Assembly: GCA_016936615.1 (NCBI GenBank)
Contig: JAFGXN010000033.1
Span: 1-39,197, forward strand
Reading direction: 5' to 3'
From: Spirochaetales bacterium
GTDB taxonomy: Bacteria > Spirochaetota > Spirochaetia > JAFGXN01
Length of the DNA stretch: 39,197 nucleotides
How positions within the stretch are numbered: the stretch's first letter is position 1; each line of letters starts with the position of its first letter. This document shows positions 7,428 to 38,270 of this stretch, one piece after another. The notes beneath the pieces are model-generated. The model worked only from the letters and a program-made list of their open reading frames with translations, had not been told where the DNA came from and did not search any database. The translations under genes were made by a program, and so were the position numbers.

Positions 7428-7444
7428 ATAATTTAAAAAAGAGT

Positions 7445-7813
7445 TTATTTTAATGAATTCTTAATTTCTTCAGGTGACCTAGCATTAAGCAGCGGACTGT
7501 ACTGGTCAAAAATTTTCTGAGCAAGACCAAATGAATTGGTCTCTGTGATTTTCTCTGAATAGGATTTGTAGAGCATATCTTCAAAGACCTTCTGGCTCTG
7601 ATTTTCAGGCAGCAAATCGGATTTTTCAACAGTCTTCTTCATAGAATCAAGCATCATCTTCACAAAGATTGACTCGAAATCTTTGCAAGCTTCCATCAAT
7701 CTCTCTTTCTGGACATCATCTCTATCAAATACCTCTGCACTTGACTTGAGGCTTGAACTTTTTTGTGAAAAAACTGCTGGATCTGTCATTCCATTCAAAC
7801 TATCTACTGCCAT
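7445..7813 (-). CDS. flgJ: Flagellar rod-binding protein (FlgJ N-terminal type)
   Basis: 122 residues carrying only the rod-binding domain: KERLMEACKDFESIFVKMMLDSMKKTV (about 36-62), then LPENQSQKVFEDMLYKSYSEKI and a helix containing NSFGLAQKIFDQ. This is the pattern of the N-terminal half of FlgJ, which caps and assists rod polymerisation in the periplasm. The peptidoglycan-hydrolase half found in enterobacterial FlgJ is absent, as in spirochaetes and many other lineages where a separate hydrolase opens the wall. There is no signal peptide, as expected for export by the flagellar type III apparatus. It is the last gene of the operon, 12 bases after flgG. Confidence 0.9.
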   Translation of the reverse strand: MAVDSLNGMTDPAVFSQKSSSLKSSAEVFDRDDVQKERLMEACKDFESIFVKMMLDSMKKTVEKSDLLPENQSQKVFEDMLYKSYSEKITETNSFGLAQKIFDQYSPLLNARSPEEIKNSLK

Positions 7814-7825
7814 AATTTTTACCTA

Positions 7826-20194: not shown

Positions 20195-23100
20195 ATTTAA
20201 AAATCTTAACTCTCTTTACGGCGAGTGGTCAATAGATTTCACAAATTCAAGATATACAGAAGAGGGAATTTTCTTAATTTCTGGACCTACTGGATCTGGA
20301 AAGACTACGATTCTCGATGCAATTTGCCTTGCTCTATACGGAATGACTCCGAGACTTGAGAAGATTTCTAAGAGTGGTAATGAGATTATGTCAAAAGGCA
20401 CAGCTGAATGTTTTGCGGAAGTAGAATTCCAGACAACCTCAGGTCAATTTCGAAGCTTCTGGTCGCAATCTCGCGTAAAAAAATCTTCTACTGGAGGGTT
20501 TGCTGATGCAAAACATGAGATTGCCTCGTACAACCCCCAACAAAAAGAGTACAAAATTTTAAACTCGAAGAAAAAAGATGTAGCAAAGACAATTGAAGAG
20601 ACTACAGGGATGAATTTCACTAGGTTTAAGCGGTCAATTATGCTTGCACAGGGGGATTTTTCTGGATTTTTGATGGCTAATGCCAACGACAAGGCGCCTA
20701 TCCTTGAACAGATAACTGGAACTGAGATCTATGGAGAGATTTCTGTAGCAGCATACTACAAACACAAAGAAGAAAAGCAAAGGCTCGAAGAGTTGCGTGT
20801 AGCACGTAAGGAGATTGAAATTCTCGATGCAGACTCAGAGGCAGAAATTGAAGAGCAAATTAAAGGATTAGCAAAAGAAAAAAACAGCTCAAAGCAGAAT
20901 CTTGATCAGCTTAACGAGCAGATTTCGAGGGTCACAAGAATAGAAGAGCTGAATAAGGAGCTAGCTGCGACTCAAGAAGCATTTGAGAATCTAAAAAAGA
21001 ATGAGTTAAAAATCAAAGAACAAAGGCAACTACTTGAAAATGCTAAAAGAGCAGACGCATTTGATAGCGAGATAAATGAGATAAAAATTTTAAAAGAGAA
21101 CATAGTTAAAGGGCTAGCTGAATCAAAGCAAACTGAAGAGCTTATTCCTAGAACAGAAGCTTTAATCAATTCTTTTGCCCAAGAAATTGAGACCTTTAAA
21201 CAGAGCAAAGAGTCGGAGTCGAAGCTGCTAAGCGATCTTGAGAATCTAGTAGAGAAGGTAAAAATTCTTGATGAACAAATTAGACTTAAAAGCAAGGATT
21301 TTTCTACACTAAATGAAGAAAAGAGAGCTGCTATTGCAGAACTAGAGGATAGTAATACTAATTTAACTGAGATTAACAATAAACTTGACCAAACAAGAGA
21401 TATTAAAGCTAGTTCCAGCAAATATCTATCAGAAAATATCGATGACAAGGAGATCAGCTCTGAGTTTAGGCTTCTCTCTGAAAAGATAACAAATGCAAAT
21501 TTGCGCAATAAAGAGATTACCTGTGCGAAAGAGGATTTAGAAGAATTAAAACTTGAAAAAGTTAAGATCTCTTCACAAATTGTAGATATTTCGAATAAAA
21601 TTAAGCAACAAGAGACAGCTCTTCAAAATACAAAATTAGACAAAGAGCAGTCACAAGCTAAAGCCAACAAGGTACTCGGTGGATCTACTAAAGAGGAGCT
21701 TACCAGCGAGATCACCAGGCTAAAGGATATACACTACTCAGTCGATGCAAATCTTGAACTATCTCAGCAGAGAGCTCTCCTAGAAGATGGTCAGCCGTGC
21801 CCACTGTGCGGCTCTCTTAGCCATCCACTCACGGCTGAAGAATCAGAGCTCAAGCGCCAGAAGGAAGAGTTAAGGCTCAAAATTGAAAAGTGTCAAGCAA
21901 TTATCAACGAAGTAGCAGATCTCGAGAAATTAATGCTGGAGTTTGATTCTGCTAGCAATAGAGAACAAAATATATTGTTGGATCTTCAGCGAGAGCAGAA
22001 AAGCCTCGAAGAGAAAGCCAACTCCAACGCAGAAAAATCTCTAGCCGCAGAGAAGTCTCTCCAAAAGCTTAATGATGAAAAATTAGCACTAGATAGCTAT
22101 TTAGAACCATTAATAGAGCGATATAATTCTAGCCCCAGTAATCTGCTCGAGATTTTGCAAAAGAGGATAGCTGAATATACTAGACAAGAGAAGATTCACC
22201 AGGAGAACAGAGAGTTGTCTCTGAAGCTTGAAGGTGAGAAAGAGAGATTTACCGAGAAGATTGAGTCAACCAAGAAGCGAATCGAAGAAATTTCCAACAA
22301 ACTTGAGATTCTTGGCCTTGAGAAAATTATCCAAGACCGTAAGAATCTTTTCGGAGATAAAGATCCTGAGATAGAATTGACAACAGCCAAAACAAAGCTT
22401 TCTTCAATAGATAAGAAAATCGAAGAGACTAGCCAGGAGAAAGGAAAACGAGAACGCGAATTAGAAGGTTTCCTTGCAACTATAAAGATTATAAAAAAGT
22501 CCACTAACGACAATATCCAAAGATTGAAAAGTCTTGAAGAAGAAATCTCAACTAAATTAATAGAGAATGGCTTCTCAGATATTGAGAATCTTCTCAGTGC
22601 CAAGCTTACAAAATCTCAACAAGACGAGATTCTCAAAGATATTGATCAGCATAAGACCCAACAAACTAGATTAGAGACGCAAATAAATGAAAAAGAACTA
22701 TCAATTGAAAATATCAAAAGAAGTCTTTTGTCTGACAAAGATCTACCAGTACTACAAGGGGAAAAACTCCTAATCGAAGAAAAAATTGAATCATGTGAAC
22801 GTGAAATTTCAAATCTCCAAAGCAAACTCTCTATAAATGAGAACCAGCAAGAAAAGGCTCGGGAGCTATCTGTAAGAATTGAGAACCAGTCAAAAGAGAC
22901 CGAGAAGTGGGCAAAGCTTTCAGAGCTTATTGGATCTGCAAAAGGGGATAAGTTCAGAATCTTTGCACAAAAGATAACATTTGATGCGATGATTCACCAA
23001 GCTAACCAGCAATTAAAGAAGATGTCTGACAGATTTCTGCTTATCAGCAATCCTGATCCTGAAAAGGCTCTGGAATTTAGCGTAATTGATAACTACCAGG

Positions 23101-23453
23101 CAGGAGAAATCCGCTCGACAAAGAATCTCTCCGGTGGTGAGACCTTCCTGATTAGTCTCTCATTAGCACTTGGATTATCAAAGATGTCAAGTCGCAAGGT
23201 TAAGGTAGATTCTTTATTCCTCGATGAGGGATTTGGAACTCTTGATGAAGATGCTCTTGAAATGGCGATTGAGACTCTCTCGAATCTGAAACAGGATGAG
23301 AAGACAATAGGAATTATCTCCCATGTTGCTACTTTAAAGGAAAGGATTAATAATCAGATAAAGGTTACAACTGTAAATAATGGAAAGAGCAAACTCTCAG
23401 GACCAGGTTGTGTCTACTGCGGATCTAGTAGTCAGACAGATACTCTATTATAG
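20175..23453 (+). CDS. sbcC: Exonuclease SbcCD ATPase subunit
   Basis: 1,092 residues from ATG 20175, which has GGAG at a workable spacing; the upstream ATG at 20166 abuts that GGAG directly. N-terminal Walker [10 protein letters not shown] (37-45), Q-loop region [11 protein letters not shown], two long coiled-coil arms rich in Glu, Lys and Leu, the zinc-hook CPLC (Cys542, Cys545) in the middle, then the ABC signature LSGGE (985-989) and Walker [12 protein letters not shown] (1014-1024). This is the Rad50-like ATPase that clamps DNA and regulates SbcD. The extreme C-terminus is odd: it carries a second CxxC (Cys1079, Cys1082) in a tail that overlaps the 3' end of the convergent kinase gene by 29 bases. 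Confidence 0.97.
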
Positions 23454-25662
23454 ATTGATAATCGTAGCTTGAGAGAAACTCAAGCAGCTTATCTCTAACA
23501 TCTTCTTCTTGTAGTTGCTGAGCAATCTTAAGTATCTCTTTTTTACTGCCTAGCCTTGCTAACTCAATTAATTGATCAACACAATCAGCAATCGCAAGAA
23601 GATTATCGCTAAGTTCAGCAGATTGTTCTGTTACCTGCTCAGCGGTTTGTTCTAGTGTAGCTGCAGAACCAGGCAAATCAAGATTGTTGGGGCTATCCTC
23701 ATCTAAGACCTGAATTCCTAGCCTAAGAGAAATTGCATAAAGAATATCTTCAAGCTCCGCAAGACTAAGAGGCTTATGCAAGAAAAAATCTGCACCAGCT
23801 GCAAAAACCTCATCAATCTCCTCTTTAAAAACACTTGCACTAATAATAGTAATAATAATATCGTCATCTTCCCTTATCGCCTTCATTTTCTCCATTGTCT
23901 GAAAGCCATCAAGTCCTGGCATCTTCCGATCTAGAAAGACTAATTCATACTTTTTCTTCTCAAACTCAACTATTGAAGCAGCACCGCTATCAAAGATTGA
24001 AATATTTTTAAAACCCAGATTATGGAGTAATTCTTCCAAAAAATTGCGATTATTAAGCGAATCATCAACAACCATCACATTCAGTTCCAAGAACTTATCT
24101 AAGAACTTATGCTTATCTCTCACTGCTGAATGCTGATTATCTGCAACAATAAAAGACTCGCACTCTTTTGCAGTAATTGTTGCTGTGAACCTACTACCTT
24201 CGCTCTTATTACTACTTACTACAATATCACCACCTAACAACCTAGCGAATTCCCGACTTATTGAAAGTCCTAATCCTGACCCTTCACTCGCAGTGATTCC
24301 TTCATCAGTCTGTTCGAAAATTCTAAAAATTTTCTCATAATCTTCTTCTGCAATTCCACTTCCAGTATCTTCAACCACCATATCCAATCGTTCTTCCTGA
24401 AAGAAAATAGAAATCGCTACGCCACCCTTCTCGGTAAATTTTATCGCATTTCCAATTAGATTTATCAATATTTGACGTATTTTGCCTTCATCAGAGAATA
24501 TACACTTTGGAACATTGTTACTATCAACCCTTAAATACAAACCTTTTTGTTCTGCTTTAATCTTAAACATATCTATCAGATTATCTAGCATGTGACAAAA
24601 ATCAAACTGCGACAAGTTTTTTTTAATTTGACCAAACTCAATTTTTGACATTTCCAGCACATCATTTATCAGACTCAAAAGATGTTCACCACTAGAATTT
24701 ATAACCGCTAGCTTCTCTCTCTGCGTGGCAAGAAGATTGCCCTCTAAGATCAACAACTGAGAATAACCTAAAATTGCATTCAAAGGAGTACGCAATTCAT
24801 GGCTCATATTAGCAAGAAACTCTGTCTTGGCTTTGCTATTAAACTCAGCAAATTCCTTAGCTTTTTGCAACTCTTCGGTTCGTTGCTCAACAATCATTTC
24901 AAGATGATTCTTATAATCGTTTAAAATTTTCTCAGCAGTCTCTTTTTTCGATATCTCTTTCTTAAGCTTTAGATTTAAATTCCTCAGCGACTCTTCGCGG
25001 GAGTGAATTTTCACCGACATATCTTGAATATCATTCATAATAGGCAAAAATTCCTTGCTATAAACTTGAAAGCCAATATCGTGATAATCTCCCGAACTAA
25101 TCTTCTTTATATCCATGCTCAAAGAGTTAACAACATTTTTGATAAGCAAGCGAATTAAAACAATAGTAATAAAAAGAAGAATTCCCAAAGAGATAAAAGA
25201 GGTTAAGACACTAAAAATAATGTACTTTTGTGTATTAGCAACAATCTTCTGATTACTGAATACAACTTCGACCTCTCCAATGACTTTTTCCGAAAAATAT
25301 AAAAAAAAGCTGTCAGTAAGATAAGCCTCTTCGAGAACAACTCCATAGCTCATTTCTCGACCATAACTCATCTCCTCCTGATTATAGACCTCTTTAATTT
25401 GAATAAAAGCAACATCTTCATCCTTAACAAGAGCATTACAAATATTGTCAATCATCTCATAACTAAAACTCCAAAGAGGATCTTTAATACTCTCTTGCAA
25501 ATATTTCCGATATTCCAAAATTTTTGCATCTAGTGAGTCTTTCTCTCGTGAAATCTGTGCGTTAAGATTTATAACTGTCAAAACAATCATCAATGGCAGT
25601 GTTATAACCAGAACAGCAAGAATCAACATATTTGTTAAAGATAACTTAGATAAACCTTTCAT
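23425..25662 (-). CDS. Membrane-bound hybrid sensor histidine kinase with receiver domain
   Basis: 745 residues. Transmembrane segment (about 12-32), periplasmic domain of about 110 residues, second transmembrane segment (about 147-172), HAMP-like linker, coiled coil (about 215-270), HisKA with SHELRTPLN (His288), ATPase with N-box Asn405, G1 EDTGSGI (431-437) and G2 GSGLGLS (461-467), then a receiver with Asp578 (FLDRKMPG) and Lys630. After a Glu/Gln/Ala-rich linker a helical C-terminal domain of about 75 residues follows ([19 protein letters not shown]) that resembles tails of other hybrid kinases but has no clear HPt histidine. The intact H and D sites indicate a phosphorelay to an unlinked HPt or regulator. 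It is the last gene of the 15-kb minus-strand run, 45 bases after the beta-helix lipoprotein, and overlaps sbcC tail to tail. Confidence 0.93.
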
Positions 25663-25707
25663 CTATACTCTCTACTTAATTATAGTTTAAAATTTTGAAA
25701 AATGAAA

Positions 25708-26913
25708 TTAATCAGATAAAAGATTTAAAACTGTCGCTGGCGCCCCAATACTGAGGCCAGATCCATCATAGGCTCCAATACTATCTCCATCCTTTCCACT
25801 TCCAATCAAAGCAGAACTAGAAGACAACTCATAATACCCTTTTGCCTTATCTAAAAAACCACTCGATTCATAACTACAATTAGAACCAAGCACAGGATTT
25901 GTCGAATCACTTACAACTCCATCAAAATTGATGTAATCAATCTCAGGATTTATACTAGCACCTGATTCTATAAAAAGACCATATGAACAATCAAATATCG
26001 CTGTATCTAACAAAATAAACTTAGTAGCACTAGCCGAAGCTTTAACATTAATTGCATAATCACCAATTTGCTGAGGAATAGAAAAACCTTCGTAAATCCA
26101 CCGCTTCGATTGAATCTGAGCATTCAAATTACAATGACTAATAAAGATATCGCTCGATGATGACGGCTCATTTACCATTATTGGCCAAGTAGTATCAACA
26201 ACAATGCAATTCTCAAAGACAAATTCCGCATGTCCATTCAAATTTGGCCCTGCCTGAGATCCAGAGATAAATGTCTGGCGAACAGTCAACAGACCTGGAT
26301 CATGTGTATCGATAGCCTCATGACCACAATCTTTTATTGTAACAGATTTTATATCTGACTGACACTCAGAGTTATAAGGTATCTGAATATTTATACCACT
26401 AGCCCAAGTATGAGCAACTACTGAATTATGAACATTCAATCCCTCATGATTTGGCATTGTTCCAATACCATCGCGACACCAACTAACGCAAGTGTAATCA
26501 AAATAGCCCTTTTTTACAGTAAAACCAATCCAATTATCATAAAAAGGCTCTTCGGCTGAACTTTTAAAAACAATTGGCTTATCAAATGTACCTCGACATG
26601 ATATCTCTCCTAAGACTAGAAAAGTAATTCTACTTTTTTCAAACTCTTCAGTATACATAGGATCATCAGCTGTCAAATTATCAGCCTCCCCAAGATGTGA
26701 CATCTGCGCTACATCTTGCCTAGCCATTACAGTGATAACACTGCCAGGTTCTATTGTTAAAAGTACGCCCTCAGCAACAACGATATCACCTGTAACAGTA
26801 ATTTCTCCCGACCAAACAGTATCTTTCTCAATAAACCCATTTGCGTCATTTAGATCCATCCCACACGAAACAAAAACAATTAAAATAGATATTAAAAATA
26901 TTTTTTTTCCCAT
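25708..26913 (-). CDS. Right-handed parallel beta-helix lipoprotein
   Basis: 401 residues from ATG 26913, with GGAG and 5 bases of spacing; a longer frame from 26940 has no such site and would run into the upstream gene. The signal peptide ends in VFVSC, so Cys17 is the lipidation site. The mature protein begins with VWSGEITVTGDIVVAEGVLLTIEPGSVI, the usual cap and first coils of pectate-lyase-like beta-helix proteins, and continues with repeated short strands containing asparagine and cysteine (GLNVHNSVVAHT, HAEFVFENCIVV, IFISHCNLNA, KFILLDTAIFDC). It ends DSIGAYDGSG, typical of these folds. No acidic catalytic cluster can be assigned. It is probably a surface or periplasmic binding or structural lipoprotein. 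It lies 10 bases after the 461-residue outer-membrane candidate. Confidence 0.85.
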   Translation of the reverse strand: MGKKIFLISILIVFVSCGMDLNDANGFIEKDTVWSGEITVTGDIVVAEGVLLTIEPGSVITVMARQDVAQMSHLGEADNLTADDPMYTEEFEKSRITFLVLGEISCRGTFDKPIVFKSSAEEPFYDNWIGFTVKKGYFDYTCVSWCRDGIGTMPNHEGLNVHNSVVAHTWASGINIQIPYNSECQSDIKSVTIKDCGHEAIDTHDPGLLTVRQTFISGSQAGPNLNGHAEFVFENCIVVDTTWPIMVNEPSSSSDIFISHCNLNAQIQSKRWIYEGFSIPQQIGDYAINVKASASATKFILLDTAIFDCSYGLFIESGASINPEIDYINFDGVVSDSTNPVLGSNCSYESSGFLDKAKGYYELSSSSALIGSGKDGDSIGAYDGSGLSIGAPATVLNLLSD

Positions 26914-26923
26914 AATAACTCCG

Positions 26924-28309
26924 CTAAAATCTATAACCAATATCTAACACGAAAGAAGACTGAAAATATGCTCCATTTGAAGAAAAAAACGGTCGAAGAA
27001 CTATCAAAGGTCGTAAAACTACATTCTTATGTGGATTGATAACAACACCAGCTGAAACAGAGAGAAAACCACCCGTATCCATTATGAAAGTATTTTCCTC
27101 ACCTGAAACATATCTATCCCATTGAAGAAAGACTCCTCCACCAAATCTGAAATGAAAATTAAACATCGAGATGAATTTTGTATTGTAAAAAAATTCATTC
27201 CCTATAAAAAGATAGTGGGATTGGTCTGGCATCTCTTCTCCTTCTCCAAGCTTGATTACCCCATGACCATTGTACTCCACCGAGAAAGCATATCCTAACT
27301 GACTGAGTAATGGAATCTTCCCCCCAAAATCTGTCTCAAATATAAACCCAGCAGAAGTGATAATCGACGGTTGATCAATAGAATCCATAGGGAAAATTCC
27401 ATAAAAAAATGGCCACCTGAAGACTAAATTAACAGAACTTGAGATATTTCGCTCAGGATCTAACTCTTTTTTTTCAAGAGAGAGAACACGAAAGAGAATC
27501 TTCGAACAATCTCGCCCCGAAGGATTAATAATTCTTATCTTATAATAACCACTTTTTGCCTCTTTAAAGTCTGCCCAGAAGTTTAGCTCTTTTTTTGAGA
27601 CAATATTAATATTAGAGACAAGTACTGTTCCATTTTTGCCAGTAATTTCAACCTTAGCACCTTTCTCAAATCCATTTCCTTTAATTGAAAAAAGAGGAAT
27701 TATCTCCTGTTCGTAGACCCTCTTAGGATTAATCTTCAAAATTATTGGAAGACTTTTTCTAACAAACTCCAATCCTCCTGTCAAAATATCTGACTTGCCA
27801 GATGGATTTTCAACATAAATATCGTAAATACCAGATTTAAACCCCTTAGTGTTAAAACGACAAAGATAATCATTCCCCTCGGAACTTATTATATCAGCCT
27901 CAGCCGAATTCCTCTCATTTTGTATAAAAACCTTACCTCCACTCTCAAAATCATAAATTGAGAGTAGAAACTCAATTTCGTCTTCTCCAACATAATAGAG
28001 ATCTGCCTCAGAAAAAATTATGATCGGGGGCTTACCTATAATTACTTCAAGTCGAATCCACTCAGTCTGGGCAGCAGGTTTTAAAAATCTATTTAAAACT
28101 GTAATCTGATACCTATAAATCCCTGGAAGAAGAATAACTTCTAGATAACTATTCTGAGTCTCCTGTTCAAGGACAACCTCTCCGGCTGAATTTTGAATCA
28201 CAATTCTGTATGAGTATGCATTTGGAACAGGCTCCCACTCTATCCGATTAGTTGCATAGCTAGTCGCAAACAGGAGAAGCAGTAATGTAATAATAAATTT
28301 ATCTTTCAT
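26924..28309 (-). CDS. Exported FN3-like / IPT-like protein with C-terminal beta-barrel (paralogue B)
   Basis: 461 residues. A signal peptide (cut about after Ala19) is followed by a fibronectin-III-like domain (RIEWEPVPNAYSYRIVIQN ... LLPGIYRYQITVLNRF, about 20-90). Two Ig-like or IPT/TIG-like modules come next, with SGIYDIYVENPSGK and KGNGFEKGAKVEITG as diagnostic stretches, up to about residue 285. The last 170 residues alternate aromatic and polar residues and end in IGYRF, a terminal Phe typical of outer-membrane barrels. The domain order and many residues match the protein encoded just upstream, so they are tandem paralogues. Start and stop overlap that gene by 4 bases. I infer an outer-membrane protein with a periplasmic multi-domain arm that could contact the FN3-like repeats of the FecR protein. 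Confidence 0.75.
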   Translation of the reverse strand: MKDKFIITLLLLLFATSYATNRIEWEPVPNAYSYRIVIQNSAGEVVLEQETQNSYLEVILLPGIYRYQITVLNRFLKPAAQTEWIRLEVIIGKPPIIIFSEADLYYVGEDEIEFLLSIYDFESGGKVFIQNERNSAEADIISSEGNDYLCRFNTKGFKSGIYDIYVENPSGKSDILTGGLEFVRKSLPIILKINPKRVYEQEIIPLFSIKGNGFEKGAKVEITGKNGTVLVSNINIVSKKELNFWADFKEAKSGYYKIRIINPSGRDCSKILFRVLSLEKKELDPERNISSSVNLVFRWPFFYGIFPMDSIDQPSIITSAGFIFETDFGGKIPLLSQLGYAFSVEYNGHGVIKLGEGEEMPDQSHYLFIGNEFFYNTKFISMFNFHFRFGGGVFLQWDRYVSGEENTFIMDTGGFLSVSAGVVINPHKNVVLRPLIVLRPFFSSNGAYFQSSFVLDIGYRF

Positions 28310-29760
28310 TTTATGCTCACCCCCAATCCCGCAAAACTAGTTATCACAAGGTCTATACGATTATTTGGATAAAAAAGTGGTCTAACCCCAACACCAAAAT
28401 TAAAAAAAACTTTTTTCTTGGTTCTAATTATCATATCTGCCCCAAAATTAAAATACGGAACAGCAGTCTGATAGCCTGTATAGTCGTCAAGAAATGGAGT
28501 ATCACCCAATTTCATATTTAAGATACAAACCCCAAAACCAGCCTTAAAAGAAAAATCCAGAGGAATATCAAGTTGAGTCTTATAAAAAAGGTTAGCACCA
28601 ATCATTCCAAAAAGAAAAGGATTATATGTTGCAGTTTCTTCACCATAGATAGTATCATTTAAAAAGAATGAGAATAGAAAATCAAGCTGCACTCCTAAAT
28701 CTTTAACAAAAGGCTTATCATGAAAGACCTTGTTGCCAAATCCAAAATCAGCTGTCATACCAAATCCAGTTACTGAATGAAAAAACTTATCGCCACGAGC
28801 AAGCCCAGTATCACCCTCAGGTGCTGTAACTCGCTTATCTAATCGCATATTAGCAAAAACATAGTTAAATGAAATTTCAAAGATATTGCTAATTACATAT
28901 GAGTTCACAGTAAAGGCTTTAGCTAGTACAGACTCAAGCCCAGAAGGATTTATAACAACCAGATCATATACACCAGAATTAGCAAACCTAAGATTAAAAT
29001 CAACAGAAAGATTCAGCTCACTTACCTTTTTTGTATAATCAGCTCTAATGGTGTAGAACTCATTTCTGAGTAGTACCTGAGCACCATCTTTAAAATTCTT
29101 GCCAAGGATGCTTACGCCACGGTAGGTCTCAGAAATATAGCCGCTATTCTGAGATAGCGACTCTACCTCCGGTTGCAAAGCCTTTTCTAAAACAAAGATT
29201 CCGCGGCTAATTGAAAATAGTCCAGAAGGATCCTCAACAAGCAGAGAGTAACTTTTTTCATAATCGAATTCCCCAGATGTATCAAAGGATATCTGAATAT
29301 CACCATTATCTAACCTAGTCCACTTTGCCTCGATAATCCTAGAATCACTCTCATCTGCAAGAAAAATCTTAGATTCTTCCTGCATATTATTGATAACAGC
29401 TTTAAACTTAAAATCTCCAATACCAGTATAAATTTTGTTTGCCGATACTGATTTTATAATCGGCTTCAAAGCTACTTTTACAGTTAAATTTTGCCAAGGA
29501 GTCTCTGCAGCCTTTTTCTGAAATTTGTTCAGAACAATTACCTTAAACTGATAGCTACCTGGAAAGAGTGTTAAAATTATAAAATTCTTCTCAACTTTTT
29601 CCTCTACAATAGTAATACCATCTTTCTGCAAGACAAAGATATAGGCTGCAGCACCTTCGACTGGATCCCAATCAATCTGCCTAGTAAAATCAAGGCTTTG
29701 TGAAAAGCCAACAGCAGAGAGACAAATAAAGATCCAGACAAGTACTATTCTACTGTGCAT
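28306..29760 (-). CDS. Exported FN3-like / IPT-like protein with C-terminal beta-barrel (paralogue A)
   Basis: 484 residues, with GGAG 7 bases upstream. A signal peptide (cut near Ser20-Gln21) is followed by the FN3-like unit QIDWDPVEGAAAYIFVLQK ... LFPGSYQFKVIVLNKFQKKAAETPW, Ig-like or IPT-like modules (YSLLVEDPSGL, ILGKNFKDGAQVLLRN, SGVYDLVVINPSGLES), and a C-terminal region of about 190 residues that looks like an eight- to twelve-strand barrel (FEISFNYVFANM, GMTADFGFGNK, GMIGANLFYKTQLD, FNFGVGVRPLFY). It ends VSIK rather than in an aromatic residue. It is homologous over its whole length to the next gene but clearly diverged. It overlaps the FecR gene by 11 bases and the second paralogue by 4, so all three should be made together. 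Confidence 0.75.
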   Translation of the reverse strand: MHSRIVLVWIFICLSAVGFSQSLDFTRQIDWDPVEGAAAYIFVLQKDGITIVEEKVEKNFIILTLFPGSYQFKVIVLNKFQKKAAETPWQNLTVKVALKPIIKSVSANKIYTGIGDFKFKAVINNMQEESKIFLADESDSRIIEAKWTRLDNGDIQISFDTSGEFDYEKSYSLLVEDPSGLFSISRGIFVLEKALQPEVESLSQNSGYISETYRGVSILGKNFKDGAQVLLRNEFYTIRADYTKKVSELNLSVDFNLRFANSGVYDLVVINPSGLESVLAKAFTVNSYVISNIFEISFNYVFANMRLDKRVTAPEGDTGLARGDKFFHSVTGFGMTADFGFGNKVFHDKPFVKDLGVQLDFLFSFFLNDTIYGEETATYNPFLFGMIGANLFYKTQLDIPLDFSFKAGFGVCILNMKLGDTPFLDDYTGYQTAVPYFNFGADMIIRTKKKVFFNFGVGVRPLFYPNNRIDLVITSFAGLGVSIK

Positions 29761-32700
29761 AAATTGTCTCCGGCGATGTTATTTCAGGTGCTATAATCTG
29801 ATTTTCCAGGAATAGAGTGAATTTGACACGCATAGGCTCCCCAACAATCAGCAAATCCTTAACGCCAGGATCCTGAAAAGCAGTTACCTCTAAGTAGAAC
29901 TCACTAACATCAAGCAATTCTAACTTCGTAAATGAGTATCTAGTATCACGGATATTATCCTCTTGAAAAATTATACTCTTACCATCAGCAGCAAAAATTC
30001 TGATCCGATAATATTCAGCACCAACAACCCTGCGCCACTGAAAATTCAGCAGATTGAGCGTATCCACAGCAATTCTCTGTTCAGCCTTCGGAAATACTGG
30101 CTCTGCAGCAAGCAACTTTGGCAAATCCCCGACAACTAGAGCCCTAACTTCGGAGACCACAAAGCTCATCTTCTTATCACTTATACCTTTTACTCGCCAA
30201 AAATATCTTCCAGGCTGAATATTTTCTAATTTATAAGAGTTACTACTTGATCTGTAGATTGCAGCAATCTCGTTGAATTCGGAATCTTTTGCAATCTCCA
30301 ACCAGTAATAATCAATTCCATTTATAGGTTGCCAAGAAAATAACAATCCTGCCTTGTAAATATCAAGCAAGCCAGTAGTAATTTGGCTACGAGGACCTTG
30401 AAGAAGTAAAGGTTCAAAGGTTGTACCTGTAGCTTCCACCTCTTTCTCAACAATCTTCTCGACAGGTACTTCAACAATCTTCTCAACCTCAACTATTTTC
30501 TCAACCTCAACAATCTTCTCGACTGGAACCTCTACGATCTTTTCAACTTCGACAATCTTCTCGACCGGAACCTCTACGATTTTCTCAACTTCAACTATCG
30601 TCTCAGAATTAGTAACCTCTCGCTTTGCAACAGAGAAACTAACATTCTCAGACTGAGAACTAACTAGTCGCCCATCAGGATATCTCTTCTCAGCAATAAT
30701 TTGAAGACGGTAACCACCCTCAGCAAGATTCAACCCAGGCTTAAAGATATAAAAGTTATCTTTCGTTGTCTCAGCAAGGACTATCACTCCATCACTCTTA
30801 GTCAAGACAACTTTATAACTCTCAGCAGCAGGATCAGCTGTCCAATTTACCTTGTAAGAGGACAACATATAATCGTAGACAACCGAATTCGGTAGTGGTG
30901 AAAAAATTTCAGGTTTTTTCAAAAGTGAAACTGCATAAAAATCCGAAGTCTTGCTGCGTTGATAGACATATCCATCCTGACTAACAAACTCAACATACCA
31001 ATAATATCGTCCTGAATCAGGTATGAAAAAGTCAATATCCTTACTTTTGGTTGTCAGAGCTGCTACAGGTTTGGTCAAAGAAGAATCACTGAACAGGCTT
31101 ACACGAAATAGCCCAGAATAACTAGAATCCCACTTCAGGTTAACATTTCCGGATGAGACAAACTCGACAATTCCACCCTGCTTTGGCAGACTAGGAGTAA
31201 GCGAACCACTCGGTGCAGTTACAATAAATGAGAAAGGCAGAGAGGTCACAACAAGATTGTTCGAAGAATCAAGTGCACCAACCTTCCAGCTATAACTTCC
31301 AGGCTCTAATCTCCTCGGAAAGGTTATAGAATTATCCAAAGTTCTAATACTCATCACAGGATTAGTAAAATTATTATCTTTTCCTAGAATAAATAGATAA
31401 GCTGAAGCATTTGCTGCAACCTGCCACTTAAATTCAATTTGCTGATCTATCTCCAATACTGAAATTCTCTGATTTGCACGTGGAGAGGTCAGCTCAGGTC
31501 GTGAAACTTCGATTTTATCTTGAGAGATTGTAAACGAAGCCACAGAAGAATCAGGTAGTGCACGATTCTTTGAGTCAAATGCGCGAACCCGATAATAGTA
31601 CTTTGCAGGTGTCAGCCCTTTTACATTGGCACTCTTTCCACTTGAAAAAACAGTCCTCTCTATAATCTTAAAATCAGGATCAGTTGAAATATCTATATAA
31701 AAGTTTGAAACAACTGCAGGTTGCTCCCAAGAGAAGGTTAATCCAGTATCTTTTATGCTAATCTCACTAAAAACAGTATTATTCTCTGGCAACTTTAGAA
31801 TACTAGGAGTGTAACGAACTATGTTTGAAATTGTAAATTGCTGGGTTGTTGCAGGGCTCTGCTTCAAAATTTTGTTATTTGCATCGCTGATAACTGCTGT
31901 TAGCCTAGCAGAATAAACTCCACGAGAAGTGAATTGCGAGGCGGGAATCTCAAAACTTGTCGAATCAATATTATTTTTTACAAAAACCTCAGTTCCAGAT
32001 TGGTTCAAAATAGATAAATTATACCGTGTAGCATCAAGAACACTTGACCACCGCACTAGTAAGGTCTCTCCACTCACAAGCTCTACAGAACTACCTTGCT
32101 GCGGATCTAACACAACAGGGCTCTCAAGTGGAACAGAGACAACTAACCTTCGTGCATCGCTCTCGAATTTTACAGACCCTTTTTCATATATGACCTTCCA
32201 GAAATAGACTCCAGAATTTGGAATAATAACTGTCTTATTCAGATCTGAAACTAAGGAGTCATAATATGGCTGAGAATCAGGAGATTTAGCAAAAACCTGA
32301 ATCCTAAAGTTACTCTTATCAAGATTGCTAGCCCATCTAAAGTTTACAGGTGAAAACTTCTCAATTTCAAGATTTTCATCTACCTTAGGATAGACTAGAC
32401 TGATATTCCCTTCGATTTTCTTTATCTCAAAGCTGTTAATAATCTTATTTGAGATAAGGTTATTTTCAAAATCAATCCCATCAACTGTCCAAAAATATGT
32501 TCCAGGATTTGAAAATCCAGTAAGCAAAAAACTACTACTACTCAATCTCTTTTCAGAGATAATAGTCCTAAAATCTCGACTATCTGAAATTTTCAATATA
32601 TACTCTTTAATCTCTCGGTCAGGCGACCAATTAAATCTTATTCCAGATTGAATATCAAGGGTAGAAAAGCCATTGTTATCAGGATAGATTAATTTCGGAG

Positions 32701-33961
32701 CCCTGATCTGCTGCTTAATTGCTAGTGAAAAGCTTCCAACATCGCTACTACCCTTGCTCTCAAGACCAAGAATTGGATAGACAGGTGTAACTCTCCAGAA
32801 CAACTTCCCAACCTTGTTCTTAAAATTCTTCGAGCTATTAAGATCAAAATTCAGATATGCACCTCTAACATTATCAAACTTCTCGACATTTCCAGAGAAA
32901 TTTTCATTATCTGAGACTTCAACAAGATATGAATCAGCATAAAATGACTGTCTCCATGAAAATCTAACCAATGGAGGGGTATTTCTATATTCAAAAAGCA
33001 AATTTGATGTTGGAGAAATAAGAGTAACCTTATCCTCCTGCAAAATTGAGACTACTCGTGGAATACTATATTCGATTAAATCATCCTTCTGAGTCTTGAT
33101 ACGCCAGAACCAGTTACCAGCCTCGAGTCGAAGCCCAATACTATCACGACCCTTCGCATCGAACTCACGCGAATCAGAAAAGTCCCGTGATGCTGATATC
33201 TCTAGCACGGTTGAACTAGGCGCCTCTTCTATCTTCCATTTAAAGAGAAGCTCTTGTGATTTAGAAAAAGTTACAATATACTGCCTGTCAGCAGGTAAAA
33301 GTGGCATTGCCTGAATTTTCGCCTTTTTCAAATCTAAGGCAGCGAAATCAACCTCAGATCCCTTCTTACCAGCCTCAATATTTATCGCTTGATTAGCCCC
33401 TATAGATTGTTGGGTTCCGCCTATTGCTAATTTCGCATCTCCCTCAGCAACAGAGACACTAACATCTCCACTCTCACTACGTCCTACATTAACCGAAGCT
33501 GAAGAGAACTCTACAACTCTGTCGCCAGAGACAACCCGAAGTGAACCTTGATCCTCATCTTCGCCCTCGCTTGAAACTCTGTTAGCAGCAATCAACCCCG
33601 AGACCAGCTCGACACTCTTCTCTTTAGCCAGCCAGTCTAACACAAGGTAGGTATTCTCTTCAAGATTGATCTTAGTGCCGTCTAGCATCTCAATTGTAGC
33701 ACTAACTCCACTCCCGGTTCTAATTGAATCGAGGTTATAGATAGGCGCCTTACCGTCGATGGTCTCCCAAATATTGATACTCGCATACTTTCTTCGAATT
33801 GAGTCATTTGAATATACAATCGAACCAATAATCTGCCCATCAACATTCTCAACAGTTGCATTAAGCTGACGATACAACATATAACTAGAAGAGGCTATTA
33901 TGGCAACAAATATTGAACCAAGAATAAAATCCTTTATATTTTGACTATTCAATAATTTCAT
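29750..33961 (-). CDS. Giant membrane-anchored FecR-domain protein with about eleven FN3-like repeats
   Basis: 1,403 residues from ATG 33961 (GGAAG, 6 bases of spacing); the ATG six codons upstream has no clear site. The gene starts within the cyclase gene (17-base overlap). A cytoplasmic stub and one transmembrane segment (about 11-30) are followed by a FecR domain (about 75-200: IRTGSGVSATIEMLDGTKIN, SVSVAEGDAKLAI, SIGANQAINIE). Then come about eleven units of 90-100 residues with the pattern P-x5-FxW-x7-Y-x-(L/I)-x-(I/V)-(S)-x(D) ... YFWRV, which resemble fibronectin-III or carbohydrate-binding modules. Between units 9 and 10 is a charged linker of repeated VEKIVEVP (about 1119-1175). In iron signalling FecR is a periplasmic anti-sigma regulator; here there is no sigma factor or TonB receptor, so the domain probably has a structural or sensing role. 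The protein is long enough to reach far across the periplasm. Confidence 0.85.
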   Translation of the reverse strand: MKLLNSQNIKDFILGSIFVAIIASSSYMLYRQLNATVENVDGQIIGSIVYSNDSIRRKYASINIWETIDGKAPIYNLDSIRTGSGVSATIEMLDGTKINLEENTYLVLDWLAKEKSVELVSGLIAANRVSSEGEDEDQGSLRVVSGDRVVEFSSASVNVGRSESGDVSVSVAEGDAKLAIGGTQQSIGANQAINIEAGKKGSEVDFAALDLKKAKIQAMPLLPADRQYIVTFSKSQELLFKWKIEEAPSSTVLEISASRDFSDSREFDAKGRDSIGLRLEAGNWFWRIKTQKDDLIEYSIPRVVSILQEDKVTLISPTSNLLFEYRNTPPLVRFSWRQSFYADSYLVEVSDNENFSGNVEKFDNVRGAYLNFDLNSSKNFKNKVGKLFWRVTPVYPILGLESKGSSDVGSFSLAIKQQIRAPKLIYPDNNGFSTLDIQSGIRFNWSPDREIKEYILKISDSRDFRTIISEKRLSSSSFLLTGFSNPGTYFWTVDGIDFENNLISNKIINSFEIKKIEGNISLVYPKVDENLEIEKFSPVNFRWASNLDKSNFRIQVFAKSPDSQPYYDSLVSDLNKTVIIPNSGVYFWKVIYEKGSVKFESDARRLVVSVPLESPVVLDPQQGSSVELVSGETLLVRWSSVLDATRYNLSILNQSGTEVFVKNNIDSTSFEIPASQFTSRGVYSARLTAVISDANNKILKQSPATTQQFTISNIVRYTPSILKLPENNTVFSEISIKDTGLTFSWEQPAVVSNFYIDISTDPDFKIIERTVFSSGKSANVKGLTPAKYYYRVRAFDSKNRALPDSSVASFTISQDKIEVSRPELTSPRANQRISVLEIDQQIEFKWQVAANASAYLFILGKDNNFTNPVMSIRTLDNSITFPRRLEPGSYSWKVGALDSSNNLVVTSLPFSFIVTAPSGSLTPSLPKQGGIVEFVSSGNVNLKWDSSYSGLFRVSLFSDSSLTKPVAALTTKSKDIDFFIPDSGRYYWYVEFVSQDGYVYQRSKTSDFYAVSLLKKPEIFSPLPNSVVYDYMLSSYKVNWTADPAAESYKVVLTKSDGVIVLAETTKDNFYIFKPGLNLAEGGYRLQIIAEKRYPDGRLVSSQSENVSFSVAKREVTNSETIVEVEKIVEVPVEKIVEVEKIVEVPVEKIVEVEKIVEVEKIVEVPVEKIVEKEVEATGTTFEPLLLQGPRSQITTGLLDIYKAGLLFSWQPINGIDYYWLEIAKDSEFNEIAAIYRSSSNSYKLENIQPGRYFWRVKGISDKKMSFVVSEVRALVVGDLPKLLAAEPVFPKAEQRIAVDTLNLLNFQWRRVVGAEYYRIRIFAADGKSIIFQEDNIRDTRYSFTKLELLDVSEFYLEVTAFQDPGVKDLLIVGEPMRVKFTLFLENQIIAPEITSPETIYAQ
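30435..30605 (-). repeat. In-frame tandem repeat coding for a VEKIVEVP linker
   Basis: A set of short in-frame repeats encodes VEKIVEVPVEKIVE-type sequence. Two adjacent 42-base units (30510-30551 and 30552-30593) are nearly identical, differing by a few synonymous changes, and the rest is degenerate. Length changes in multiples of 42 bases would keep the frame and lengthen or shorten the linker. The encoded alternating charged/hydrophobic stretch is probably an extended rod or coiled segment between FN3-like units. Confidence 0.85.
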
Positions 33962-36881
33962 ACTTTTCTTCCGATTCATCCAGATTTAAATCATTTATAT
34001 TATCGAATTTACCTTCGATACCAACTAAGGCTCTTAATTCAGATAGAGATTTCGGCGCATCAGGATCATCAAGTCGTCCAAGCACAGCATATATCTGTTG
34101 AGGCTCTGTCTTACCTTTTACCTTAATCTTATTCATAGGAACCAACCTGAAGGTATCTTTGACCTCATCTGCTGTAGCCTGAGAGATTAATATATCAGTT
34201 CCCATTGGCTTATTTAGGGCTTCAATTCTTGAAGCAAGATTCACAGCATCGCCTATAACTGTATACTCCATCTTCTCAGAAGAACCAATCTGCCCAGCTA
34301 GGACATTACCAGTGTTTATTCCACAACCAATCTTAATAATCGGCTTCTTATCACCACCACGATTCTCATTAAATTCCAACAAGGCCTGTCTCATCATCAA
34401 CACACCATTAACAGCATTCTCAGCATCATTGCCGCTAGAGATTGGAGTACCCCAAACCGCCATAATTGCATCACCAATATACTTATCTACAACACCCTTT
34501 GATTGGTTGACACATGCAACCATCCTTGTCATATAATCATTTAAAAATTCCACAACCTCATCTGGTGCAAGCTTCTCGGAAATAGCAGTAAAAGACCTAA
34601 TGTCTGAGAAGAAGATAGAGGCCTTCTTTATCTCGCCTCCAAGCTTGATTTCCCCCTTCGAAGCAAGATCTGCAATATTCTTATTAACAAATTTACCAAA
34701 AGCACTCTTAATCCTCTCTCTTTCTTTAAGACCTTGACCCATCTCGATAAATGACTCAGTCAAGACACCAACCTCATCGTGACTTCGAGCCCTCAACTCG
34801 ACATCATAATTACCATCCTGTATCTGTTTCGAAGCAAAAACTAATGCTCGAAGAGGATCTGAAATTGAACGAGAAAATAAGAGAACTATCAGACCAACAA
34901 CACCAACAGTAAACAAAACAATCAATACAAATATCCAAATTGCCAAGTCTAAGAAGGCTAAGGCCTTATCTCTCTCAAACTCTGTAATTACTGCTAGCCT
35001 TCCAAAATTTATTTTATTATAGCTGCCAATATACTTAGTCATGACTTCAAGAGGTTCTTCACCCTCTTCACCCTCAAAGACAACAAGCCGTTCATACTCT
35101 TCCTGTGAATAAGTTGCTCCCTGACCCTGACTTCCGATAAAAGAGTTAACAATAAATCTATCTTTATAGTTTTTATTAAGAATAAGCTGCTCAACATCTG
35201 GATGAACAATAATCTCACCCTTGTCATTAACAATATATCTCTCGGAATATGATTTTTTACCTGTTTGAATTGTCTTCACAAAGATATTCGAGATATCGAC
35301 AAAGACAACTAGAGAAGTCTTCTTATTAGCAACAATATAGGTAGGAGATGCAAAACCAATAACTGGTTTGCCAAGATGTGATGATACGTTAAAGACCGAA
35401 ACAGATCCATTTGCAGCATCCTCAATCTCCACTTGTCTAACTGTAAGAATATTTCTAACATTCTCCTCTGAGACACCAAACTGACCTAACATCTGCCTAT
35501 TAAAAAATTCATAATCTGTATCAGGAATAGCCACATAGACAACGCTTCCATTTTTTCCAAAATAATTTTCAACATACTCGCTAAGGCGACCATCAATAAT
35601 CTTATTACTTCCGATTATCAGGTTCTCTGCATTTCCCCGAATAGTCTCAAGCTGGTCCTCGACCTTACTCGCTAGGACACTGCTAATACCCTGGTTTGAA
35701 TCCTCTATCGTCATCATAATATTATCTCTGAAAAAGATAGTCGCAATTACTCCAATCGCAGAAAGAGACGAGATAATCATAATAGTAAAAAAGAGAATTA
35801 ACTTAGAACCGATAGAAAATTTAACTTTTTTCCCAGCTAACTGAACCTTTCTAATCTCATGCCTAGACTTCTTCTTAGTAGAATCAATAAATCGATCAAC
35901 TTCAGTCATTACTGTATTCTTGACAACCTCAGAGACCTCTTCTTTTACCATCTTGACAACAGTCTCCTGAATCTCCTCACGAACTGCTACCTTTACACTA
36001 TTTTTTAAAGATTTCTTAAACTCTTCCATCTTTGAATCTGTAAGCCCTACGCCTCCTGACTGACTAGACGCAGCAGATTGAACAGCAGGAGTCTTCACAA
36101 TCTCAGCTAACTCTGCCTTAGGCTTATAAAGCTCTTTCAATAATTTTCCTGAAATACCCTTATCCTTCAAATAATCAAGACTAGGTCTATCAGTCTTTAA
36201 AAGAAGATAATATGGCAGACCAGGATTATCCCCAAGTAGATCTTTATTCTCTACCTCAAGTGATCCATGCAGTAAAAGAACATCCTCTGCCACTAATTTA
36301 TCAATCTCAGTAAATAACCAGTCGTATCGATTCTCAAATTCAAAAAAATCAATGATTATAATAGAAAGAAACTCATTCTTAGCGCATTTATTCAATATAT
36401 TTGATGGAATATTCACCCCAATCTGCTGATTTTGATCCTTTGAAAACTTCAATTTCCGAATCTGTGGTCGAAATATAAACTCATTTCTATTCTCAGTAAA
36501 ATACTGCAACAACTCGTCTACAGAGATATCAGTCTTCAACGACTCGACATTCTTATCAGAGGCAAACCACATACGAGCCAGCATAATCTCAATCTTCTGA
36601 ATCAGCAATCCAAGCATTCCTCCAAGCTCTTCAGAGATAAAAAGCGAAGATTTCATCAGCTCATCAATAAGAGGATGACCAAATGAAGCTAAATTTGCAA
36701 TATCTAATAGATCACAAGCAGATGAAAAATATAAAATACGGTTAAAATCCTTCTTAATTGATTTAAACTCATACTCTGAGATCTTTCTACCTGAAGATTT
36801 TACAAAAACCTTCAGATTATTCAAAGAATCTCTAATTCTATCAACATAACTATCTACAATCAAAACTGTTTTATCTTCCAT
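33945..36881 (-). CDS. Transmembrane class III adenylate cyclase with large N-terminal cytoplasmic region, cache sensor and HAMP
   Basis: 978 residues. Residues 1-255 form an unrecognised, probably helical-then-mixed cytoplasmic domain. Residues about 281-335 form a long amphipathic, Lys/Glu/Val-rich helix that suggests oligomerisation. The remaining parts are transmembrane segment 1 (about 358-384), a periplasmic double-cache-like sensor (385-640), transmembrane segment 2 (about 645-670), HAMP (671-723) and the cyclase domain (about 750-935). The metal-binding Asp760 (FFSDIRSF) and Asp804 (KYIGDAIM), the purine-specifying Lys800 and Thr874 (EYTVIGD), Asn881 and Arg885 (VNLASR) are intact, the pattern of class IIIb adenylate cyclases. 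It should make cAMP on a periplasmic signal. The ATG has AGGAG at a long spacing. Its stop overlaps the FecR-protein start, so the two are coupled. Confidence 0.93.
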   Translation of the reverse strand: MEDKTVLIVDSYVDRIRDSLNNLKVFVKSSGRKISEYEFKSIKKDFNRILYFSSACDLLDIANLASFGHPLIDELMKSSLFISEELGGMLGLLIQKIEIMLARMWFASDKNVESLKTDISVDELLQYFTENRNEFIFRPQIRKLKFSKDQNQQIGVNIPSNILNKCAKNEFLSIIIIDFFEFENRYDWLFTEIDKLVAEDVLLLHGSLEVENKDLLGDNPGLPYYLLLKTDRPSLDYLKDKGISGKLLKELYKPKAELAEIVKTPAVQSAASSQSGGVGLTDSKMEEFKKSLKNSVKVAVREEIQETVVKMVKEEVSEVVKNTVMTEVDRFIDSTKKKSRHEIRKVQLAGKKVKFSIGSKLILFFTIMIISSLSAIGVIATIFFRDNIMMTIEDSNQGISSVLASKVEDQLETIRGNAENLIIGSNKIIDGRLSEYVENYFGKNGSVVYVAIPDTDYEFFNRQMLGQFGVSEENVRNILTVRQVEIEDAANGSVSVFNVSSHLGKPVIGFASPTYIVANKKTSLVVFVDISNIFVKTIQTGKKSYSERYIVNDKGEIIVHPDVEQLILNKNYKDRFIVNSFIGSQGQGATYSQEEYERLVVFEGEEGEEPLEVMTKYIGSYNKINFGRLAVITEFERDKALAFLDLAIWIFVLIVLFTVGVVGLIVLLFSRSISDPLRALVFASKQIQDGNYDVELRARSHDEVGVLTESFIEMGQGLKERERIKSAFGKFVNKNIADLASKGEIKLGGEIKKASIFFSDIRSFTAISEKLAPDEVVEFLNDYMTRMVACVNQSKGVVDKYIGDAIMAVWGTPISSGNDAENAVNGVLMMRQALLEFNENRGGDKKPIIKIGCGINTGNVLAGQIGSSEKMEYTVIGDAVNLASRIEALNKPMGTDILISQATADEVKDTFRLVPMNKIKVKGKTEPQQIYAVLGRLDDPDAPKSLSELRALVGIEGKFDNINDLNLDESEEKYEIIE

Positions 36882-36905
36882 AAAAGCTCAAACTCCTAAT
36901 TTATA

Positions 36906-38270
36906 TTATTTGTAATTAATACTTGAACGTGCTACCCTAAATCCTACATCGGCAGAAAAGGCTGTTTTATTAAATGACATCCTCTGACCCGGTTGTAGGT
37001 ATATTAAATCTTCCATATAACAGCTCCCCCCCTTGATAACCTTAGCTTCATTATTATTAGTTAAAATGCCAGCGCCACCGCCATAGTCAAAAGAATAGCT
37101 ATCAGCAACCCACTCAAAGACATTTCCACTCATATCATATATTCCCAGAGAATTTGACTTCTTCTGACCCACAATTACTAGTCGATAATTTGCCAAGGCA
37201 CTAGGTCGATCTGCAAAATTACTATAATTAGAAGAATTCCAAGAGTATTCATCCTCTTGCCCTGCAGAAGATGCGCCTGAAACAAAAGAAGAAACATTAA
37301 AGTCAGTGCCATTGTATCGCGCAGCCCCCTCCCACTCTTTCTCTGTAGGCAATCTATACCCATTCTTTGTTAGATCATAGACTTCAGAACTAAATGAAAA
37401 AGGCTGTTCCAATCCATTTTTTATATTTAATAACCAGCAAAAGGTCATTGCACCAAAATATGTCACTCCTACTGCTGGATAATCATTATATCCAGAAAGT
37501 AATCTTAAAAAATACTTTTTATACCCATCCTCCTCAGCATAATCAGCATAGAGAGGGGTATTTGAACTAGAAAAATCAATTAGTAACTTATTAGAATCTA
37601 AGACAGAATACAAGGCACCATCATTTGTGAAATAAAGGAATCCATTCTCAAGTCCCCAATTATAGACATTAAAAAGCTCTATATTTGTAATCTCATGAGA
37701 AGAAAGATAAAATTCGTCGTAAGAGACACTAGTACCACCAATTTGATAAGATCCTCCAGGAACATTTACTAATTTATTGACAGACGACCCTTCATTTATC
37801 ACAACAGAGGAGGTTGTCTCAAAGACGACAATATAATCCTTAAAATTACCAGTACCTGAGAATATACGGAAAAATTGCTTTGTCGCTATAGATTCAGTCT
37901 CATAATCATAAACACACCCAGTAAAGTTAATAGGCACACTATAATCATCTATCTTCGAACCAAGACTAAGCGACTCAGAATTATTGACCAGAGTAACAGG
38001 ACTTCCAGAGACAGAAGAGTCTTCCGGTTTAATAGACACAGAACTAAGAACCGCATCTGGATTGACCTTAAAGACTATCGCACCAATGCGGGGATCGAGT
38101 CCATAGCGAGAAGGGGCTATCTCATAAATATCAGCAATATAAGTTGTAAGTGAACCACTGACATCAACAGAGATAGTAACATTATGAATTTGCTTATCAT
38201 AAGCACCTTCACACGATAATAATAAGAAAAATATAAATAACAACAAATTTAATACAGTTTTTTTAATCAT
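36906..38270 (-). CDS. SUMF1/FGE-fold lipoprotein, probably non-catalytic
   Basis: 454 residues. The signal peptide ends in FLLLSC, so Cys20 should be lipidated. Residues about 28-160 look like an Ig-like or beta-sandwich region. From about 167 the formylglycine-generating-enzyme fold appears: VNVPGGSYQIGG, FYLSSHEITNIEF-like (FYLSSHEITNIELFNVY), YPAVGVTYFGAMTFC, YRLPTEKEWEGAARYNG, IYDMSGNVFEWVADSY, KVIKGGSCYM and DVGFRVAR. The region where true FGE has two copper-binding cysteines (GGSxxCxxxxC) has only Cys417, right after GGS, and no second Cys, so sulfatase-activating chemistry is unlikely. Many bacterial members bind sugars or serve as envelope components. It is the first gene of the run containing the adenylate cyclase and has no Shine-Dalgarno sequence. 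Confidence 0.85.
   Translation of the reverse strand: MIKKTVLNLLLFIFFLLLSCEGAYDKQIHNVTISVDVSGSLTTYIADIYEIAPSRYGLDPRIGAIVFKVNPDAVLSSVSIKPEDSSVSGSPVTLVNNSESLSLGSKIDDYSVPINFTGCVYDYETESIATKQFFRIFSGTGNFKDYIVVFETTSSVVINEGSSVNKLVNVPGGSYQIGGTSVSYDEFYLSSHEITNIELFNVYNWGLENGFLYFTNDGALYSVLDSNKLLIDFSSSNTPLYADYAEEDGYKKYFLRLLSGYNDYPAVGVTYFGAMTFCWLLNIKNGLEQPFSFSSEVYDLTKNGYRLPTEKEWEGAARYNGTDFNVSSFVSGASSAGQEDEYSWNSSNYSNFADRPSALANYRLVIVGQKKSNSLGIYDMSGNVFEWVADSYSFDYGGGAGILTNNNEAKVIKGGSCYMEDLIYLQPGQRMSFNKTAFSADVGFRVARSSINYK

Follow-up and report, generated by a model that had tools for sequence, protein, structure and literature searches.

A conserved triad of adenylate cyclase, FecR/FN3 rod and predicted outer-membrane barrel in Spirochaetota, a candidate trans-envelope receptor

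Seven consecutive minus-strand genes occupy positions 23425-38270 of a 39,197-nucleotide stretch of DNA (the window; contig JAFGXN010000033.1) from a Spirochaetales bacterium. In the direction of reading, they encode a SUMF1-like lipoprotein, an adenylate cyclase (CYC), a FecR/FN3 protein (FECR), two paralogous barrel proteins (BAR1 and BAR2), a beta-helix lipoprotein and a hybrid histidine kinase. Which of these genes belong together, and what might their products do? The original prediction, made from the letters of this DNA, took all seven for one envelope-stress or adhesion-sensing machine in which FECR connects an inner-membrane cyclase to outer-membrane barrels. All seven open reading frames (ORFs) were found where it had placed them, and the identities it had assigned hold by Pfam (SUMF1, Guanylate_cyc with HAMP, FecR, beta-helix, and hybrid histidine kinase). 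As an interpretation, it is partly supported: CYC, FECR, and BAR are one evolutionary unit, while the other three genes are not conserved neighbours.

Conservation of the cyclase, rod and barrel genes

Within the window, CYC (33945-36881; 978 amino acids (aa)), FECR (29750-33979; 1409 aa), BAR1 (28306-29760; 484 aa), and BAR2 (26924-28309; 461 aa) follow one another on the minus strand, and the coordinates confirm the overlaps that had been proposed between cyclase and FECR, between FECR and the first barrel gene, and between the two barrel genes. CYC and FECR share 35 bases, or 17 if FECR starts at the ATG at 33961, which is the more likely start; in relatives L043-L047, the overlap is exactly 17. 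FECR and BAR1 overlap by 11 bases and BAR1 and BAR2 by 4. The two BARs are indeed paralogues, ~25% identical to each other, and tandem BARs also occur in certain relatives (e.g., L049, L052, and L124).

For a synteny check, we collected 80 regions, each surrounding a match to FECR or the LIC11435 family, and used the window proteins as queries against the ORFs of these regions. Most of these regions contain cyclase, FECR, and BAR in this order, on one strand and mostly with overlapping ORFs. The three remaining window genes (SUMF1-like lipoprotein, beta-helix lipoprotein, and kinase) do not recur in the 80 regions; of the synteny originally expected, the three-gene core is kept in relatives and the rest is not.

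So as not to favour FECR or BAR from the outset, a second search started from the cyclase, using an alignment of the dCache-HAMP-catalytic part of CYC against 84,980 species genomes. Over all loci, FECR lies directly downstream of 115 of 132 distinct CYC-family genes, overlapping the cyclase in 95. The 17 CYC genes without FECR next to them comprise one fusion (L083), five truncated or contig-end genes (L151, L161, L162, L179, and L191) and, for the rest, cyclases of other phyla, among which L178, L180, and L183 have the triad in a different order. BAR comes next in 89 of the 104 cassettes with at least 1.2 kb after FECR, in 76 of them overlapping. When all flanking ORFs were clustered, no family besides BAR appeared in more than 10 of the 115 neighbourhoods, contrary to the view of all seven genes as one machine.

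Co-occurrence was assessed with profiles in 148 genomes of the window's class, Spirochaetia, to which genomes like those of Treponema pallidum, other Treponema and Borrelia also belong; the threshold for CYC was at least 370 bits (the next cyclase scored 317). We used a family-specific FECR profile because PF04773 alone is too broad, matching 236 of 296 genomes, and FN3-only partial matches in G302, G320, G337, and G348 were excluded from the FECR counts. The 46 copies of the CYC family are spread over 32 of the 148 genomes; FECR-family members occur in these 32 and in no others, and no genome has only one of the two. Forty-two of the 46 CYC copies have FECR as the next gene downstream, the others being located at contig ends or in short fragments; in G308, FECR lies 0.65 kb from CYC by profile match. 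Members and non-members stand side by side in at least eight families (f1, f3, f6, f9, f16, f68, f70, and f71), and CYC and FECR have therefore been gained or lost together. It is on these joint within-family gains and losses that we put weight, as Fisher's test for co-occurrence (p = 3e-33) ignores phylogeny. We note that G185 and G267, close relatives from the window's own family with genomes of 1.9-2.0 Mb, carry neither CYC nor FECR.

Genomes with several cassettes have matched cyclase-FECR pairs in 23 of 26 informative triplets. The CYC and FECR distance matrices are likewise correlated (Mantel r 0.62; permutation maximum 0.13), a correlation that is in part shared species history, from which the within-genome triplets are free.

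In L083, a complete contig of a Treponema-family genome, CYC and FECR form a single 1596-aa ORF with both halves intact. This fusion could stem from a single-base sequencing error; it agrees with the predicted topology because the end of the cyclase and the start of FECR are both cytosolic. In Bdellovibrionota, the order is FECR-BAR-CYC at L178 and L183, CYC is flanked on either side by BAR and FECR on the opposite strand at L180, and one genome has a FECR-BAR pair separate from CYC (L208 and L177). Given these varied arrangements, gene order is not merely inherited. In sum, the order kept across Spirochaetota, the perfect co-occurrence in the 148 genomes, the fusion, and the Bdellovibrionota orders bear out the proposal that cyclase, rod, and barrels belong together.

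FECR-type rods also adjoin dCache-HAMP-SpoIIE phosphatases at Bdellovibrionota loci L209 and L211, the latter rod overlapping a kinase gene as well. Against a profile of the CYC dCache domain, the dCache of the two phosphatases scores 44-49 bits; the dCache of a dCache-HAMP kinase from a region with another rod (L210) reaches 60 bits, and background hits reach at most 25. These few loci, from two genomes, suggest that FECR pairs with the receptor part of CYC and not with its catalytic part. The kinase near the L209 and L211 rods is of the PAS-Hpt-ATPase type; we read these rod loci as the same kind of receptor with other outputs. Also at L210 (6648-9014, plus strand), a 788-aa protein combines FecR and FN3 domains with a barrel-like C-terminal stretch ending in YRIGFEF and was judged by eye to be a possible FecR-barrel fusion.

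Predicted topology and folds

The topologies and folds of CYC, FECR, and BAR are predicted with good confidence. By sequence, CYC has two transmembrane (TM) segments and FECR one. CYC, an inner-membrane receptor cyclase, is laid out as a cytosolic N-terminal domain of ~345 aa, a TM segment (~353-371), a dCache domain (~392-605), a second TM segment (~650-668), HAMP (668-719), and a class IIIb catalytic domain (751-931; PF00211 at 34089-34631 of the window), with Pfam matches to Guanylate_cyc, HAMP, and, weakly, dCache (E = 1e-4). The metal residues Asp760 and Asp804 as well as Lys800, Asn881, and Arg885 are invariant in 71 of 71 sequences (the window and 70 relatives), Thr874 is conserved in 69, and the solved structures closest to the catalytic domain belong to bacterial adenylate cyclases, CyaB among them. 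Judged by these residues, the active site is that of a complete class IIIb cyclase, and synthesis of cyclic AMP (cAMP) is predicted. Residues 1-345 (35847-36881) have no Pfam or PDB match, and this domain is confined to a few related families of close relatives.

The FecR/FN3 rod of the original prediction is mirrored in the models, in which FECR is an Ig/FN3 chain anchored in the inner membrane. Its FecR domain matches PF04773 at residues 84-182 (33434-33730; E = 4e-8). The AlphaFold2 (AF2) model of residues 1-830, with a mean predicted local distance difference test (pLDDT) score of 88, has a TM helix at 12-40, a FecR beta domain at 50-201, and six Ig/FN3-like domains at 224-819, and Foldseek matches it to the Ig/FN3 chains of titin, Robo2, and contactin. 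The whole protein has about eleven such domains as counted by sequence; relatives carry fewer. Near residue 1150 (~30450-30600), we observe a charged linker of tandem VEKIVEV/PVEKIVE repeats.

BAR-linked FECRs end in a short conserved tail behind the last FN3 domain, which in the window reads ETIYAQ (29753-29770) and has its aromatic residue at position -3. In counts that are descriptive, the rows being related sequences, Tyr or Phe lies exactly at -3 in 59 of 85 BAR-linked FECRs and somewhere in the final six positions in 75 of them, as against 7 of 89 in a control segment just upstream; FECRs without a detected BAR have a tail aromatic in 7 of 15, two of those seven ending in LysM. The main point is the fixed distance from the C-terminus. 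The tail probably docks on the arms of BAR.

As proposed, the two BARs are modelled as outer-membrane barrels, with FN3/Ig arms that are predicted to be periplasmic. Each carries a signal peptide, and BAR2 has the barrel-type C-terminal Phe. The AF2 model of BAR1 (mean pLDDT 87) comprises the signal peptide, an FN3 domain (26-94), two Ig/IPT-like domains up to ~286, and eight barrel strands (291-483), which Foldseek matches to NspA (TM-score 0.69), Ail, and OmpX (0.64). BAR1 is thus predicted to close eight antiparallel strands into a barrel of OmpX/NspA/OmpA fold. The barrel parts of BAR1 and BAR2 have no Pfam match, and their likeness to the Leptospira LIC11435 family (NF047756) is confined to the N-terminal FN3/Ig region (E = 4e-31 for BAR2 and 1e-15 for BAR1). 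With scores of 108 and 57 bits under a curated cut-off of 380, which no genome of the 296 sampled attains, the BARs are ruled out as members of the LIC11435 family proper.

A candidate relay across the envelope and its rivals

How could these three proteins act together? We think it probable that they form a three-component trans-envelope receptor that relays from BAR through FECR and CYC to cAMP, with contacts, direction, ligand, and cAMP effect that we infer from the above. BAR would sit in the outer membrane with its loops outside and its FN3/Ig arms in the periplasm, and FECR would have its N-terminal helix in the inner membrane beside CYC, its FN3 rod spanning the periplasm and its short tail docking on the BAR arms. 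A ligand or contact at the outer loops of BAR could then shift or pull FECR, and the moved FECR would alter the dCache-HAMP receptor state of CYC and hence the cAMP output, to be read by CRP-type proteins. Between the two sensory roles originally put forward, the sensing of a surface ligand or of adhesion is the better fit, and "envelope stress" is unsupported here.

Several observations weigh against this relay. With a dCache of its own, CYC may be able to sense a small ligand alone; the barrel part of BAR is very divergent in sequence; and the outer-membrane location of TP0483, the BAR of Treponema pallidum, is disputed (PMC10118025). Moreover, BAR went undetected in 15 of the 104 cassettes, so that contact with a barrel may not be required of every rod, and two FECRs without a detected BAR (L159:6011-7540 and L169:11843-13255) have a LysM C-terminus, as if peptidoglycan stood in for the barrel as the far anchor.

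Since dCache domains usually bind small ligands, CYC might sense a periplasmic small molecule via its own dCache, with FECR and BAR only fixing its site or spacing or tuning its gain, and the cassettes of CYC and FECR without a detected BAR are in keeping with this. However, the pairing found here exceeds the needs of a tether, as FECR is never apart from CYC in the 148 genomes and FECR-BAR is almost as tight, and multiple cassettes in a genome keep their own pairs; we regard sensing by CYC alone as unlikely. An Ig/FN3 chain and a barrel are also typical structural parts, and with the LysM ends of L159 and L169 they would suit a tether from the inner to the outer membrane (rod plus barrel or LysM) in which the rod carries no signal and the cyclase is incidental in the operon. 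Such a tether is hard to reconcile with the fact that, of the several cyclases in a genome, the rod is strictly paired with one of receptor type (the window's own genome, a draft of 3.26 Mb, has six class III cyclases), with the cyclase fusion in L083, and with the related Bdellovibrionota rods that adjoin phosphatase and kinase signalling proteins, and we consider it improbable.

The compactness of the run, all gaps being at most 45 bases, speaks for the seven genes as one machine. However, three of the seven (the genes for SUMF1-like lipoprotein, beta-helix lipoprotein, and hybrid kinase) are not kept beside the others in relatives, which rules out a seven-gene unit and leaves the seven-gene machine highly improbable. 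Conserved gene order can last through descent, and on this general ground, with no specific support here, the triad might be read as conserved without any functional link; the coupled presence and absence across many families, the Bdellovibrionota orders, the fusion, and the lack of any other conserved neighbour make this scarcely credible.

As for the adjacent genes, the claim that the run is spaced by 45 bases or less is borne out by the coordinates. The SUMF1-like lipoprotein gene (36906-38270, minus strand; FGE-sulfatase/SUMF1 Pfam match, E = 5e-29) is separated from CYC by 24 bases; some Treponema genomes (L080, L090-L092, L132, and others) also encode large SUMF1-like lipoproteins close to the cassette, their position not being fixed. 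The beta-helix lipoprotein gene (25708-26940, minus strand) has a Pfam match under the curated cut-off (E = 8e-5) and no homologue among the relatives' ORFs. It overlaps BAR2 by 17 bases only with a TTG start, and is 10 bases away with the likely start, an ATG at 26913, which is consistent with its lipobox and lipoprotein signal; two lipoboxes (LLSC and FVSC) are visible in the window proteins. A gap of 45 bases separates it from the hybrid histidine kinase gene (23425-25662, minus strand; Pfam), whose 3' end overlaps that of a convergent sbcC gene (20166-23453, plus strand) by 29 bases (23425-23453). Promoter and terminator scans of the run gave no signal beyond that of shuffles and do not support transcription as a single unit.

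Treponema pallidum and known systems

The parallel that had been drawn with T. pallidum Tp0483-Tp0485 is correct: the cassette of this species (G056, L073) is TP0485-TP0484-TP0483, which matches CYC-FECR-BAR in its three families, in their order, and in the overlap of their ORFs. Its FECR ORF has 671 aa (TPASS_0484 is annotated as a FecR protein; PMC4403809), and its barrel ORF counted from residue 48 has 374 aa, matching the length of TP0483 in the literature. The cassette differs from the window in its shorter rod, its single BAR, and the lack of SUMF1, beta-helix, and kinase neighbours. TP0483 binds fibronectin, which is blocked by its peptide 316-333, and its residues 179-374 are laminin-reactive (PMC10118025). 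In an alignment with the BAR1 model, this peptide falls between strands 5 and 6, with its last residues entering strand 6; given periplasmic arms, it is predicted to be an outer loop.

The cyclase of the cassette is the only class III cyclase of the T. pallidum genome, and searches covering class III and CYTH found no CYTH (class IV) protein. A CRP-like protein at 274.5 kb is consistent with TP0262, for which binding and modulation of tpr promoters have been reported (PMC7864442, PMC3656149). The cAMP of TP0262 may be supplied by the TP0485-TP0484-TP0483 cassette.

Few regulators are known in T. pallidum, and little is known of how it notices its host. We tentatively propose, as possible rather than probable, that outer-membrane barrel, FecR/FN3 rod, and dCache-HAMP receptor make up a modular class of receptors across the envelope, whose output would be a cyclase in spirochaetes and a phosphatase or kinase in Bdellovibrionota. 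In T. pallidum, host fibronectin or laminin contact at TP0483 would then act through cAMP and TP0262 on surface-antigen expression. If so, the adhesin TP0483 would gain a sensory role, host-contact sensing by T. pallidum would become directly testable, and the FecR domain would be an adaptor for second-messenger receptors too, not for sigma factors alone.

The triad is not described as a system in the literature searched, with subscription journals mostly outside it, and appears to be widespread yet unrecognised. Its likeness to FecA-FecR-FecI and PupB-PupR-PupI extends to an outer-membrane barrel, an inner-membrane protein with periplasmic FecR domain, a cytosolic output, and the logic of an outside-to-inside relay. 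FECR is of FecR type in that its FecR domain (84-182) is placed in the periplasm on a single-TM protein (TM 12-40). It has no cytosolic anti-sigma domain, with no more than ~17 residues preceding the TM segment and no such Pfam match, and no extracytoplasmic function (ECF) sigma factor was found in the neighbouring window genes scanned with Pfam or as a recurrent gene in the 115 cassettes; as neither anti-sigma domain nor sigma factor is found, FecI-type sigma regulation is ruled out. FecA-FecR-FecI, moreover, has a TonB-dependent 22-strand transducer, whereas the BAR1 model has eight strands, no plug, and no TonB-receptor Pfam match, and CYC-FECR-BAR has a cyclase output and an added long FN3 rod instead.

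In two other settings, class III receptor cyclases are associated with FecR-domain proteins, outer-membrane barrels, or both. In Campylobacterota, clusters comprise a CHASE2-adenylate cyclase, a FecR-domain outer-membrane protein, a phosphodiesterase, and a TPR protein (PMC9239204), and in S. meliloti, a plant protein sensed through the NsrA barrel raises cAMP via the CHASE2 cyclases CyaD1, CyaD2, and CyaK (PMC13001267). Both differ from the triad in their gene set, in having a CHASE2 rather than a dCache-HAMP sensor, and in lacking a triad with an FN3 rod. By Pfam, the CYC sensor region has no CHASE2, with a dCache match followed by HAMP; no phosphodiesterase or TPR protein is encoded in the seven-gene run, and BAR is the only recurrent neighbour. 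We note that the window's own genome has a second FecR neighbourhood of another type (L123, C58:1-13803), separate from the cassette described here and resembling the Campylobacterota clusters: a cyclase with a CHASE2-like N-terminal region, judged by eye (2468-5233, minus strand), is divergent from a small secreted protein (5314-5790), an outer-membrane barrel (5787-7316), and a 217-aa FecR-domain protein (7334-7987), all three on the plus strand. The Campylobacterota CHASE2/FecR clusters and the NsrA system of S. meliloti are the closest precedents for a barrel-to-cyclase link.

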